A DNA stretch of 38,771 nt from positions 1 through 38,771 of the forward strand of contig CALZKB010000074.1 of assembly GCA_945787575.1 (NCBI GenBank). Reading direction: 5' to 3'. A program made the translations under genes and the position numbers. Positions 31,628 through 36,860 of this stretch are shown piece by piece. The stretch comes from Thermoanaerobaculia bacterium (GTDB lineage: Bacteria; Acidobacteriota; Thermoanaerobaculia; Multivoradales; JAHEKO01). The notes beneath the pieces were generated by a model. That model was not told the DNA's origin, did no database searches, and saw nothing but the letters and a program-made list of their open reading frames with translations. Each line of letters starts with the position of its first letter. Position 1 is the stretch's first letter.

Positions 31628-32872
31628 TCACTGTGCGCGGCCAACCTCGCTCGTCAACCAAAAGCCGTAGCTACGTTCCAGCTTGTCGACGGACTGGCCG
31701 AGCCCGCGGCCGAGCGCCGCCGCTCCCGACGGTCCACCGGCCGCGACGTCCTCCAAAAAGGCGCGGAAGTCCATGGCCGTCTCCTCGGGGGCTGCGTCGA
31801 GCAGGAAGCGGACCAAGAAGGTAGAGAGCGCGTAGTTCCTCGACCTCTGATCCGGAGCGACGAAGTCGATCCACTCGAGGTCGAGCAGCTCGCCGAGCGG
31901 CAACATTCGAGAACGGGCCGTCTTCCAGTCCTGGAGCAGCTTTGTCCAGACCACCCGGCCGCCGCTGCTCGTCGAGGAGACCGCGACGGTGTTGCCGCGC
32001 ATCCGCTGAGTCGTCAGCAGGGTCGTCCCGCCCAGCGTCCCGGGCTCGAGCCTGCCGTCCGCGCCGATCCGGGAGAGCGAGAGATCGTTCGCGAGGCCCT
32101 CTTCGAGCCAGGTGCGCGGAAGCAGAGGGAACACTTGGCGGTTGAGCAGGTGGGTCAGCTCGTGGACGAGGATCGAGGCGAGCTCGTCGCGCGAGCTCGC
32201 TTCGACGAAGAGAGCCGCCAGGGAGCTGTCGGCGTGGCCGTCGGCGGCGAAGTCGCCGACGTTGGTCGCTGCCCAAGTGAGGTCTCGGTAGTCCTTCTCG
32301 CGCTCAAACAGGAGGATCGGCGGGAGTCGGCTGATGTCCGGCTCCAACCCGAACCGTTCCCGGTAGGTGGCGGGAAGGCTGGTCGCGATCCGATCGAGAG
32401 ATGAGAGAAGTTTCTCGTCTTCGACATCGGTGTGAAGCGGCCAAGGACCGAGCGTGGTCCAGACGCGGTTCTCTCCTTGCAGCCTCGCCCTCGCCTGAGC
32501 GAGGCGAGCGGTTCGCTCCTCCGCCGCACGGTCGACGACGATCAACGCTCGGGCTTCTGGCGCGAGCGGCTTCGAGGCATCCGGTACCGGTTCACCCGCC
32601 GGGGCGAGCCAACCTGTCAGCTCCCTGAAGCGGGTGCGGATCCAAATGCCGTCGCGCTCGAGCACGGGGAGCTCGATCTCGGCGCTCACGATCGCGAGTT
32701 GCGCCGCCCGAGGATCGGGGTGCGTTCTCAGTGGCGTGTCGGCGGGCACGAGAATCGAGGCCTCCGCTTCCAGGGGCTCGAAAGCGGCTCGCCGCCCGAG
32801 CGGCTCGTCCTGCGCCGCGGCCGGCGACCCCAGAACCGTCCAAAGCACCAGGATGGCGGCGTTTCGCGTCAC
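31628..32872 (-). CDS. Secreted zincin, peptidase MA-like family, with N-terminal SH3-like domain
   Basis: The GTG at 32872 overlaps the stop of the upstream gene (GTGA) and is followed by a signal peptide (AAILVLWTVLGSPAAA). The mature 390 or so residues start with an SH3b-like unit (about 38-92, VPADTPLRTHPDP through ELTGWLAP), then a long helical region, then the metal site HELTH (His237, Glu238, His241) with TWLEEGLAN supplying the third glutamate about 17 residues later, as in the peptidase MA family. It probably acts in the periplasm or at the cell surface; the target is unknown. Coupling with the VWFA-like gene suggests a shared job. Confidence 0.85.
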   Translation of the reverse strand: MTRNAAILVLWTVLGSPAAAQDEPLGRRAAFEPLEAEASILVPADTPLRTHPDPRAAQLAIVSAEIELPVLERDGIWIRTRFRELTGWLAPAGEPVPDASKPLAPEARALIVVDRAAEERTARLAQARARLQGENRVWTTLGPWPLHTDVEDEKLLSSLDRIATSLPATYRERFGLEPDISRLPPILLFEREKDYRDLTWAATNVGDFAADGHADSSLAALFVEASSRDELASILVHELTHLLNRQVFPLLPRTWLEEGLANDLSLSRIGADGRLEPGTLGGTTLLTTQRMRGNTVAVSSTSSGGRVVWTKLLQDWKTARSRMLPLGELLDLEWIDFVAPDQRSRNYALSTFLVRFLLDAAPEETAMDFRAFLEDVAAGGPSGAAALGRGLGQSVDKLERSYGFWLTSEVGRAQ

Positions 32873-34146
32873 GATCCCGCGAGATGAATGCCCACGGTGC
32901 TCGGACCGAGTGAGACTTCGGGTGGTTGAAACACTCCGTGTACCCAAGCGATGCGCTGTGCTTCGAGGAGTTTGACGACTCGGCGGGTCTCGCGCTCGAG
33001 TTTCGCCATCGTCGAGACATTCGCCGCCGGCCCCCACGGCGTGTCGACCTCGCCCTCGGTGCTCCACACCACCAACGGTACGCGGAGTTGTTCGAGGTAG
33101 CGGCGAACGTTGGCTTGCGAGTGGTGACTGTTGTCAGCCGCTTCCGGTCCGAGCAGCAGGACGACCGCCCGCCGGTGCCCACCTGCCGAGATGTTCACGC
33201 CGGCGACCGCGACGGCGTCGGACAGTCGCTGAAGTGGATCGGGCACACGAGGGTCGCGGACGTGGGTGAGGAGCCATAACAGGCCTCCCGACGCCACCGA
33301 CAGAGACCGAGGTGCGAACAGGTGCAGATCGACGGCTGGGCGCGAGCGCTGCTCGGCAACCGGGCGCAAGAACCGGACGGCGTAACCGCGGTTGAGGGGA
33401 GCAACCCAGCGGTAGGATCCCGAGCTTCGCCGGGCCATCTCGTCGATCGCGACTTGCGCGCTTTGGTCGCGCACGAAGACCAGCTCCGCCGGGCCGCTGA
33501 CCACGTCGACGACCTCCAGCGGCTCGCCGCGACCTTGCAGCCAGCCGGACCTCGAGGGTGCCTTGGAGCCCTTGTCGAGTCGCAGGGGCACGGCGGTCAG
33601 CTCGCTGGAGACGGTGTCCGTGAAACTGCCGCCGAACGTCCGTTCCACGATCGAAACGATGAACTCCGAGAATTGGACTTCGATTCGCAGATAGTGGAGT
33701 TGCTCGGGATCGTGCTTCGGCAGCTCGATCGCACGAGGGTCGGTCGTGGGGATCTCGACCCCGTCGAATGACACGTTCACGCTGATCGGATCCTCACGTT
33801 CGACGCTGTTCCAGCGGACCTTCGCGATCAGCTTCCCGGTCTCCGGCGAGAGGTCGAGGAGCAGCTGCACGTCGGCTGGCGGGTGGGGTAGGTTGAGCCA
33901 CTGCTGCGCGCTTCCGAGCTCTTCGCCGGAAGCGGAGTAGGCCACGGCCTCGAGTCGTCGGGGCTCGAGCTCATCGCCGAGGTCACAGATCGCCCGCCAA
34001 GGAGCGCCGACGACCTCCGCGATCGCCTCGCCGTTCAGCCGGATCTCGACCGCTGCGACGTCCTGGCGCACGAGCAGCTCGACCTCGTGCGGGCCGACCA
34101 CGAGCCCGAGAAACAGAGTGGCGAACGTTACGACGTCCTGGATCAC
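32869..34146 (-). CDS. Degenerate VWFA-like exported protein
   Basis: A 425-residue protein, GTG start at 34146, with a short hydrophobic N-terminus (VVTFATLFLGLVVG) that may be a signal peptide. The first 110 residues look Ig-like (EVELLVRQDVAAVEIRLNG). The middle has the acidobacterial VWFA-related layout (TAVPLRLDKGSKAPSRSGW, ELVFVRDQSAQVAIDEMA) and the end has RRAVVLLLGPEAADNSHHSQ. In real VWFA domains the metal site is DxSxS; here it reads DQSAQ, so metal binding is doubtful. The closest identity I can offer is the acidobacterial VWFA-related family, with moderate certainty. It is coupled to the zincin by a GTGA overlap. Confidence 0.7.
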   Translation of the reverse strand: MIQDVVTFATLFLGLVVGPHEVELLVRQDVAAVEIRLNGEAIAEVVGAPWRAICDLGDELEPRRLEAVAYSASGEELGSAQQWLNLPHPPADVQLLLDLSPETGKLIAKVRWNSVEREDPISVNVSFDGVEIPTTDPRAIELPKHDPEQLHYLRIEVQFSEFIVSIVERTFGGSFTDTVSSELTAVPLRLDKGSKAPSRSGWLQGRGEPLEVVDVVSGPAELVFVRDQSAQVAIDEMARRSSGSYRWVAPLNRGYAVRFLRPVAEQRSRPAVDLHLFAPRSLSVASGGLLWLLTHVRDPRVPDPLQRLSDAVAVAGVNISAGGHRRAVVLLLGPEAADNSHHSQANVRRYLEQLRVPLVVWSTEGEVDTPWGPAANVSTMAKLERETRRVVKLLEAQRIAWVHGVFQPPEVSLGPSTVGIHLAGS

Positions 34147-35081: not shown

Positions 35082-35101
35082 CTTGTGAAAAGTTTCACAA
35101 G
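35082..35101. promoter_or_regulatory. Perfect CRP/FNR-type palindrome (operator)
   Basis: CTTGTGAAA-AG-TTTCACAAG is a 9+2+9 perfect palindrome. It contains TGTGA (35084-35088) and TCACA (35095-35099) six bases apart, the textbook CRP half-site pattern TGTGA-N6-TCACA. It covers the -35 box and spacer of the promoter at 35083-35111, a position more typical of repression than activation. Confidence 0.7.
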
Positions 35102-35111
35102 ATGTTATCCT
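35083..35111 (+). promoter_or_regulatory. Extended -10 promoter of the folate gene leader
   Basis: TTGTGA (35083-35088), a 17-bp spacer and TATCCT (35106-35111), with TGT directly before the -10 box making it an extended -10. Predicted start is near 35118. The same TATCCT hexamer is used at 21106. Confidence 0.65.
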
Positions 35112-35117
35112 ACGGTC

Positions 35118-35279
35118 ATCGTAGCCTGGTAAGAGCTACAGGGAGGTTCCCCTACCGAGTTTGAGCCCACCTCTTTTGCTGGAGGCTCTTCGGAGAATCC
35201 AGACCGCTCAACAACCCCACCCCATTCCCTAGCCCACCTAGGGTAAACCCAAACCAGACCCACCCACCAGGAACCTCCC
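35118..35279 (+). ncRNA. Structured leader RNA or small RNA of unknown class
   Basis: The 210-base stretch between the promoter and the SDR gene is C/A-rich and folds in a nested way. A first hairpin is GTAGC (35121-35125) with GCTAC (35135-35139). A long-range stem joins GGGAGGTTCC (35141-35150) to GGAACCTCCC (35270-35279), 10 perfect pairs. Inside are TTGAGC (35161-35166) with GCTCAA (35206-35211), CTGGA (35179-35183) with TCCAG (35198-35202), the capped hairpin CTC-TTCG-GAG (35186-35195), and CCCTAG-CCCAC-CTAGGG (35227-35243). It matches no riboswitch or 6S RNA I can recall. It may be a cis-regulator of the downstream genes or a free RNA. No terminator is visible before the SDR gene. Confidence 0.5.
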
Positions 35280-35328
35280 ATTCCCTTCTCCTCCCCCCGA
35301 GACCTGAGTCCAGAGCCCGACACCTCAT

Positions 35329-36108
35329 TTGCCACAGTCTGTCGACACCCTGCGCGGCCGGACGGCTCTCGTCACAGGTGCGGCGCACCGCGTCGGCAAG
35401 GGGATCGCCGAACGGCTCGCCGCCGCCGGTGCCGACCTCTGGATCCACTACGGCTCGTCCGAAGGAGCAGCCGTCGATTGCGCGACCGAGCTCCAGGACA
35501 CCCACGGCGCGACCGCGCGCGCGATTCGAGCTGACCTGTCGGATCCGGCGGCGATCGACAGGATGTTCGGCACTGTGGGTCGAAGCTCGGGCCGGCTCGA
35601 CATCCTCGTCAACAGTGCCGCGTCGTTCGAGTCCTCACCGTTCTCCGAAGTCGATGCCGCGACCTGGGACCGGACGCAAACCGTCAACCTCCGTGCTCCG
35701 CACCTCTGCGCTAGGGCCGCCCAGCCGCTGCTCGAAGCTGCGGCGGAGGAGCGGAATGCGACCTCCTCGGTCATCAATATCGCGGACCTGAGCGGCGTCG
35801 TGCCCTGGCGCCATCACGTACAGCACGGCGTCAGCAAGGCAGGCCTCCTGCACTGGACTCGGATCGCCGCCCTCGAGTTGGCGCCGCGGGTAAGAGTCAA
35901 CGCCGTCGTTCCGGGCGCAATCCTGCCGCCCACGGGGGGCGACCCGGAGGCTTGGGAAGACGTCGGAAAGCACCTCCCGCTCCGCCGCTCCGGAAATCCT
36001 GAAGATGTCGGCAACGCCGTCGCTTTTCTCGCCGCTGCCGAATTCATCACTGGTGAGATACTTTTCGTCGACGGCGGCGAGCATCTTTACGGGAGCAACA
36101 AGCGCTAA
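35329..36108 (+). CDS. Short-chain dehydrogenase/reductase, pteridine reductase (FolM)-like
   Basis: A Rossmann protein of about 259 residues: ALVTGAAHRVGKGIAERLA (NADP-binding, with the Arg typical of pteridine reductases), IRADLSDP, ILVNSAASFESSPF, then VINIADLSG. The catalytic YxxxK reads HGVSK: Lys170 is kept but the Tyr is His166. The C-terminus has VVPGAILPP and ITGEILFVDGGEHL. It lies directly before folB, which supports a role in dihydrofolate or dihydropterin reduction, but the missing Tyr leaves activity in doubt. The start is uncertain: TTG at 35329 has no ribosome-binding site, and a CTG at 35350 region is also possible. A structured leader precedes it. Confidence 0.8.
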   Translation: MPQSVDTLRGRTALVTGAAHRVGKGIAERLAAAGADLWIHYGSSEGAAVDCATELQDTHGATARAIRADLSDPAAIDRMFGTVGRSSGRLDILVNSAASFESSPFSEVDAATWDRTQTVNLRAPHLCARAAQPLLEAAAEERNATSSVINIADLSGVVPWRHHVQHGVSKAGLLHWTRIAALELAPRVRVNAVVPGAILPPTGGDPEAWEDVGKHLPLRRSGNPEDVGNAVAFLAAAEFITGEILFVDGGEHLYGSNKR

Positions 36109-36138: not shown

Positions 36139-36516
36139 ATGAGCAGCGACCGCATCTTCGTCCGCGATCTACGCCTTCGTGGGATCATCGGCATCAACGA
36201 CTGGGAGCGCGAGAAGCGCCAGGACGTGGTCATCAACCTGACTCTGTTTGGCGACTTTCGAACGGCCGGCGAATCGGACGCGATCGAGGACGCCATCAAC
36301 TACCGGACGATCACCAAAGAGGTCATCCGCCACGTCGAAGGGTCGTCACACTATCTCGTCGAGAAACTGGCTTCGGAGCTCGCCCGGATCTGCGTCGTCC
36401 GCCACGGCGCCGAGCGCGCCGTCGTGCGCGTCGAGAAACCGGGAGCGCTGCGCTTCGCCGACTCCGTGGGCGTCGAGGTCGAACGGTCCCGGGCCGATTT
36501 CGAGGGACGAGGGTGA
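36139..36516 (+). CDS. folB: Dihydroneopterin aldolase
   Basis: A 125-residue protein of the usual length. The blocks LRGIIGINDWEREKRQDVVINL (quoted in part: GIIGINDWERE holds the substrate-binding Glu), DAINYRTITKEV, SHYLVEKLAS and VEKPGALRFAD with the catalytic Lys are those of FolB. It cleaves dihydroneopterin to hydroxymethyl-dihydropterin in folate synthesis and works as an oligomer in the cytoplasm. It follows the FolM-like gene by 30 bases and overlaps the next gene by 4 bases. Confidence 0.93.
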   Translation: MSSDRIFVRDLRLRGIIGINDWEREKRQDVVINLTLFGDFRTAGESDAIEDAINYRTITKEVIRHVEGSSHYLVEKLASELARICVVRHGAERAVVRVEKPGALRFADSVGVEVERSRADFEGRG

Positions 36517-36860
36517 CCGTGGCCGAGATCGCCAAGCTCAGTAGCGTCGAAGAGCTCGATCGGCACATTGCCGCCTCGGCCGAACGCGACGTCTGGATCT
36601 TCAAGCACAGCCTCACCTGTGGGATCTCGAGCGCCGCCTGGCGGCCGTTTCAGCAGTTTGCGGGTGATGCTCCCTCCGATGACGGGCCGCGGTTCGCGGT
36701 GATCGAGATCCAGAACGCTCGCGATTTGTCGAGGGCCGTGGCAGAACGCCTCGAGGTGCGACACGAATCGCCGCAGGCGCTTTTGATCCGAGACGGTCGA
36801 GTCGTCTGGCACGCGAGCCACTGGGACATCGACCGGAGGGCTCTCGAGGCGGCGAGTTGA
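36513..36860 (+). CDS. ytxJ: BrxC/YtxJ-like monothiol bacilliredoxin family protein
   Basis: A 115-residue thioredoxin-fold protein, GTG start overlapping the folB stop (GTGA). WIFKHSLTCGIS carries the single active Cys36; in Bacillus YtxJ/BrxC the motif is TCPIS, so the Pro is Gly here. RHESPQALLIRDGRVVWHAS holds the conserved cis-Pro loop, and HASHWDI matches the family end. In Bacillus this protein removes bacillithiol from proteins; whether this organism makes bacillithiol cannot be seen. Coupling to folB suggests shared expression rather than a shared reaction. Confidence 0.85.
   Translation: MTVAEIAKLSSVEELDRHIAASAERDVWIFKHSLTCGISSAAWRPFQQFAGDAPSDDGPRFAVIEIQNARDLSRAVAERLEVRHESPQALLIRDGRVVWHASHWDIDRRALEAAS

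Follow-up and report, generated by a model that had tools for sequence, protein, structure and literature searches.

What is transcribed from the promoter that precedes the folM-like gene in the window (the whole 38,771-nt stretch of DNA that was analyzed), and does the product serve that gene or act elsewhere? The original prediction placed here a CRP-type operator and an extended -10 promoter, driving an undescribed structured RNA ahead of folate genes. The perfect 9+2+9 palindrome, read directly from the window sequence, the 17-bp spacer, the extended -10, the 10-bp long-range stem, and the UUCG hairpin all lie where they had been placed (Table 1), and transcription would start near 35118. 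Our analysis suggests that the segment from 35118 to ~35280 is probably a trans-acting regulatory RNA, belonging to a new order-wide family and representing a Rex-controlled extra copy of it.

Table 1 Features of the RNA locus and the genes downstream, in positions of the window.
Feature	Position	Strand	Remarks
Predicted Rex operator TTGTGAAN4TTCACAA, CTTGTGAAA-AG-TTTCACAAG	35082..35101	+	spans -35 to ~-17; perfect consensus; Rex gene in same genome
-35 hexamer TTGTGA, within left arm of operator	35083..35088	+	17-bp spacer to -10
Extended -10 TGTTATCCT	35103..35111	+	TGnTAnnnT kept in Rex-type copies; TG lost in L103
Hairpin P0 (GUAGC...GCUAC)	35121..35139	+	double-sided changes among relatives
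P1, 5' strand of closing stem, GGGAGGTTCC / GGGAGGUUCC	35141..35150	+	pairs with 35270-35279; 10/10 pairs covary
Unpaired CCnACC box (CCCACC), strand from P1/P2 to P3	35166..35171	+	CCNACC in 43/55 copies
Hairpin P3, UUCG loop	35179..35202	+	main stem 93% of cells paired; 6/6 pairs covary
C-rich strand CCCCACCCC, P3 to P4	35215..35223	+	consensus; motif less regular (18/55 copies, 7 expected)
Hairpin P4 (CCCUAG/CUAGGG), then UAAA	35227..35243	+	91% of cells paired; 4/6 pairs covary; following UA near-invariant
CCnACC box (CCCACC), strand from P4 to P1	35259..35264	+	CCNACC in 48/55 copies
P1, 3' strand, GGAACCTCCC / GGAACCUCCC	35270..35279	+	pairs with 35141-35150
folM-like SDR gene, possible read-through target, not defining partner	35329..36108	+	pteridine-reductase-like, below NCBIfam cut-off; adjacent in g1, g4 only
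folB	36139..36516	+	
ytxJ/BrxC-like monothiol bacilliredoxin	36513..36860	+	

A DNA search found the RNA in four species of the family, two from the same genus and two from another, each locus carrying the palindrome, the TGnTAnnnT element, GGGAGGTTCCCC, and GGAACCTCCC. A model based on a single relative (R1) matched 9 of 18 family genomes, and after rebuilding from 12 copies (R2) 43 of 149 genomes of the class were matched, in 23 genera. Under strict filters, a scan of the phylum returned 8 of 396 genomes, all within this Thermoanaerobaculia order. Insofar as the records name them, these genomes are fragmented MAGs. With filters off, a mutY-guided search recovered two further diverged copies (L116 and L119), and three g11 genomes and three genomes from other families of the class yielded none; genus g11 (G019, G027, G087; loci L117, L118, L120) lacks the RNA beside mutY, though the g11 genomes tested have rpoN. 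Searched against Rfam release 15, the window as a whole has no match above threshold and the RNA locus no credible one even at E ≤ 10; the loci of 12 relatives likewise gave nothing credible at E ≤ 0.5. In one relative (L080), a sub-threshold BjrC68 match overlaps the 3' end of the RNA and its terminator. Searches of the open literature returned no description of this RNA or of Thermoanaerobaculia sRNAs.

The predicted fold of 35118–35300 beats those of dinucleotide shuffles (z = -3.3, with 1 of 200 as good). A single-sequence covariance model served as the starting model because MAFFT alignments misplaced P1 by one base, and 55 copies (45 non-Rex and 10 Rex-type) were ultimately aligned. In this alignment, whose fitting to the covariance model favours the modelled structure, standard pairs account for 82.7% of pair cells and double-sided changes occur at 32 of 34 pairs. 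Such changes were counted in 319 cells, as compared to 106 ± 8 in shuffles and at most 65 with the partners slid; a 12-copy alignment gave the same outcome. P1 is paired in 96% of cells, with all ten of its pairs changing. The -10 element, P1, P3, and P4 are conserved among relatives, and P0, P1, P3, and P4 covary. At least six stems had been proposed; these four are well supported, whereas pairing is variable in the small P2 stem (45%) and weak in the outer extension that the model gives to P3 (55%). In the predicted architecture, P0 forms a separate hairpin, P1 closes a multibranch loop containing P3 and P4, and the C-rich, G-poor joining strands repeat CCnACC (C, A, and G make up 36%, 35%, and 11% of the unpaired columns). 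The original claim of an undescribed structured RNA that has a promoter and an operator to itself is supported. Conservation and covariation of the stems, whose absence had been named as a refutation, were both found. As judged from these sequence comparisons, it is a real, undescribed family of structured sRNAs of ~170 nt with a conserved fold of ~160 nt.

The family is for the most part found in a setting different from that of the window. A sigma-54 box of the form GG-N10-GC, with 10–12 of 12 consensus bases, lies about 20–50 nt before the match start in 44 of the 45 non-Rex copies; shuffled upstream sequences score at least 10 in 0.8% of cases and 11 in 0.04%. All 29 high-quality genomes among the 40 tested, including the source genome G000, have rpoN. 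mutY lies downstream on the same strand in 39 of these 45 copies, which are usually divergent from dnaA or sppA. By sequence, the predominant copy has a sigma-54 promoter, diverges from dnaA or sppA, and precedes mutY; this form is apparently ancestral. G000 has such a second, sigma-54 copy (L059, C210:4167-4312, TGGCACGTCCCTTGCT), while the window copy has no GG-N10-GC -24/-12 promoter. By sequence, the latter is a dispersed paralogue in which the sigma-54 promoter appears to have been replaced by a Rex-overlapped sigma-70 promoter.

Ten copies, from genera g1, g2, g4, g6, and g9, combine a Rex box (13–14 of 14 consensus bases) with an extended -10. In the RNA tree, in which deep branches are unreliable and L103 and L104 are long branches, the Rex copies of g1, g4, g6, and g9 group together, one long branch excepted. 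Their neighbours are folM-folB in g1 and g4, an opposite-strand DUF1684 gene in g9 and g6, a glycosyltransferase gene in g6, and other genes in g2. Genus g6 additionally has hybrid promoters, where a Rex box (13/14 in L093, 12/14 in L094) directly follows the sigma-54 -12 element and covers the expected start, providing independent support for Rex control. At another locus (L005:1384-1495), a long imperfect inverted repeat with GACACAATACGCA lies just 3' of the RNA and resembles a small mobile element.

The C-rich junction strands repeating CCnACC are likely the active part of the RNA, which may act through protein titration or mRNA pairing; the motif's recurrence in the P1–P3 strand (43 of 55 copies) and in the P4–P1 strand (48 of 55) compares with 8 and 7 copies, respectively, expected after shuffling. 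One reading is a RoxS/RsaE-type base-pairing sRNA, with CCnACC, or ACCUCCC from an opened P1, blocking ribosome-binding sites and no protein titration involved. We regard this as a substantial possibility, somewhat short of even. Rex control combined with C-rich unpaired strands parallels RoxS, an sRNA repressed by Rex (PMC5419742). Moreover, AGGAG/GGAGG is enriched before start codons in a small sample (234 and 212 genes from two genomes), and the P1 3' strand contains ACCUCC. Nonetheless, ACCUCCC is paired within P1 in nearly all copies (96%), and the same small sample shows no enrichment upstream of start codons for GGUnGG, the reverse complement of CCnACC. The recurrence of a similar motif in two or three strands is just as compatible with titration. 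With AGGAG enriched and GGUnGG not, specific pairing or protein titration is favoured over general blocking of ribosome sites, and a role for CCnACC as a general anti-Shine-Dalgarno element is unsupported in this sample. Hfq was not found in G000 or in G019 of genus g11, and its patchy occurrence among relatives makes co-occurrence uninformative.

A second question is whether the RNA is a cis leader, that is, the 5' UTR of folM-folB-ytxJ (and of mutY elsewhere) acting as an attenuator or riboswitch. The proposal that it leads folate genes holds insofar as the RNA precedes folM-like/folB genes in g1 and g4, at a distance of 45–100 nt, and most other copies stand 90–180 nt before mutY. The compact multibranch fold looks aptamer-like, and the g1 copies have no terminator; in the window copy, no intrinsic terminator was found after the P1 3' strand, and its transcript may partly run into folM, a terminator not being visible. 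The folate association is weak, however, as the contexts in g2, g6, and g9 are unrelated to it and the sigma-54 copy lies beside mutY. Neighbouring genes are unrelated between copies, and in the g9 copies, one g6 copy, and the mutY-free sigma-54 copies L083, L104, L106, and L110, the first gene downstream is encoded on the opposite strand, leaving the g9 and g6 copies in a standalone context. Tandem RNA pairs precede a single mutY in L080, L081, L096, and L108, and in these pairs each copy has a separate sigma-54 box. Of the 55 copies, 18 are followed by an intrinsic terminator (1.3 expected); by inspection, these terminators stand apart from P1, and no alternative pairing is evident. On account of the varied contexts, the terminators, and the opposite-strand downstream genes, a standalone RNA is favoured and a leader appears unlikely. 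A scan of genome contigs with the folM protein gave no matches. On the opposite strand of the window, positions 32869-34146 hold a 425-aa ORF with no Pfam or NCBIfam match, and G001 has a similar ORF close to its copy of the RNA (L002:1849-3132).

The operator had been called CRP-type, and TGTGA-N6-TCACA, which the box matches, is indeed the CRP consensus. The box, however, fits the Rex consensus at 14 of 14 bases, and in Staphylococcus aureus the Rex site is TTGTGAAW4TTCACAA (PMC2883068). G000 encodes an N-terminal Rex DNA-binding domain on contig C211, in a gene cut by the contig end, and this domain is close to solved Rex proteins (matching PDB Rex structures at E = 1e-18). A Rex gene is present in all eight Rex-copy genomes tested, and the two f1 genomes tested that have no Rex gene (G008 and G009) have no Rex-type copy. 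Across the 18 family genomes, TTGTGAAN4TTCACAA has 14 perfect boxes and one control match; eight of the boxes are at this RNA, two at nqrA, three at a multihaem cytochrome operon, and one near a porin-like gene (named by eye from its sequence), so that those elsewhere are mostly at respiratory genes. Within G000, just three sites have at most one mismatch: the RNA operator, the site 42 nt before nqrA, and an imperfect site whose region contains genes for a PilZ-domain protein and a bactofilin. The operator's position between -35 and -10 is also that of a repressor. For the palindrome, a Rex (NADH/NAD+) operator is a better reading than a CRP site. Control by a CRP/FNR-family activator or repressor is doubtful, more so than a leader, and keeps a formal place since the box search used the Rex pattern.

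Two observations concern Rex sites elsewhere. The perfect box 42 nt before nqrA in G000 (C127, L011:1501-1518) has a counterpart before nqrA in G001 (C43, L174:1501-1518), and the Na+-translocating NADH:quinone reductase (nqr) is probably under Rex control. Perfect boxes also precede the multihaem cytochrome operon (L171, L175, and L180, each at 1501-1518) in genomes that have no Rex-type sRNA copy; the likeness of this operon to alternative complex III (ACIII) relies on a next subunit named by eye, and Pfam supports the cytochrome alone.

That the RNA is 6S or another housekeeping RNA diverged past recognition has next to no probability, as the similar length and the shared outline of 6S RNA, a long closing stem and a bubble whose 3' strand bears a hairpin, are outweighed by a separate canonical 6S RNA (RF00013) over the Rfam threshold in G000 (C66:14710-14897, L034), which rules out 6S, and by the lack of any 6S match at the RNA locus even at E ≤ 10; 6S RNA exceeds the threshold in 20 of 21 genomes.

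Returning to a trans-acting RNA present in two differently controlled copies, the extra copy in this family has, by sequence, a Rex operator over a sigma-70 extended -10 promoter, at which Rex-NAD+ would block RNA polymerase. A rise in NADH/NAD+ upon electron-acceptor limitation would release Rex and let the RNA accumulate; we infer this response from Rex biology (PMC2883068, PMC5419742). In this way, the Rex copy would supplement, in response to redox state, the RNA that the sigma-54 copy supplies under an activator of its own. More speculatively, the exposed CCnACC strands might titrate a C-rich-RNA-binding protein or pair with particular mRNAs, and the Rex-controlled and sigma-54-controlled states might thereby alter the same set of messages. 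In its most specific form, which we advance tentatively and hold a little less probable than base pairing of the RoxS type, the RNA would be an order-wide, sigma-54-driven sponge for a C-rich-RNA-binding regulator, encoded at the dnaA/sppA-mutY junction, with a duplicate that lost the sigma-54 promoter and came under the NADH sensor Rex. If so, two unrelated stress inputs would feed one RNA regulator, and this could be the first Rex-controlled sRNA outside Firmicutes.

Regulation by sRNAs is scarcely described in Acidobacteriota. With a conserved RNA next to mutY that consistently has a sigma-54 promoter, this order offers a candidate post-transcriptional regulator that can be tested directly. 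As far as our analysis shows, three things are new: the RNA family, its sigma-54 gene linked to mutY, and a duplicate predicted to be under Rex control. Regulatory sRNAs as a kind are known. The duplicate points to promoter exchange among paralogous sRNAs, with predicted control like that of RoxS/RsaE and no detectable homology.

RoxS/RsaE sRNAs have C-rich unpaired stretches and a length of about 100 nt. Those of Bacillus and Staphylococcus resemble the RNA described here in Rex repression, predicted for the latter, and in these C-rich stretches. In RoxS a Rex site is found immediately past the start, an arrangement also seen in the g6 hybrid promoters. They belong to another phylum, however, and the present RNA has no Rfam match, is larger (~160 nt compared to ~100), multibranched, and has a sigma-54-driven paralogue. 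The sigma-54-dependent CrcZ and Qrr sRNAs of Pseudomonas and Vibrio are likewise standalone RNAs with a -24/-12 promoter, and CrcZ titrates a protein via repeated unpaired motifs. In contrast to these, the motif here is CCnACC and not CA-rich, the fold is unrelated, and there is a putatively Rex-controlled duplicate. Finally, within these genomes the Rex regulon of nqr and respiratory genes uses the operator seen here, at nqrA and the cytochrome operon, and differs in that the predicted target here is an RNA gene.
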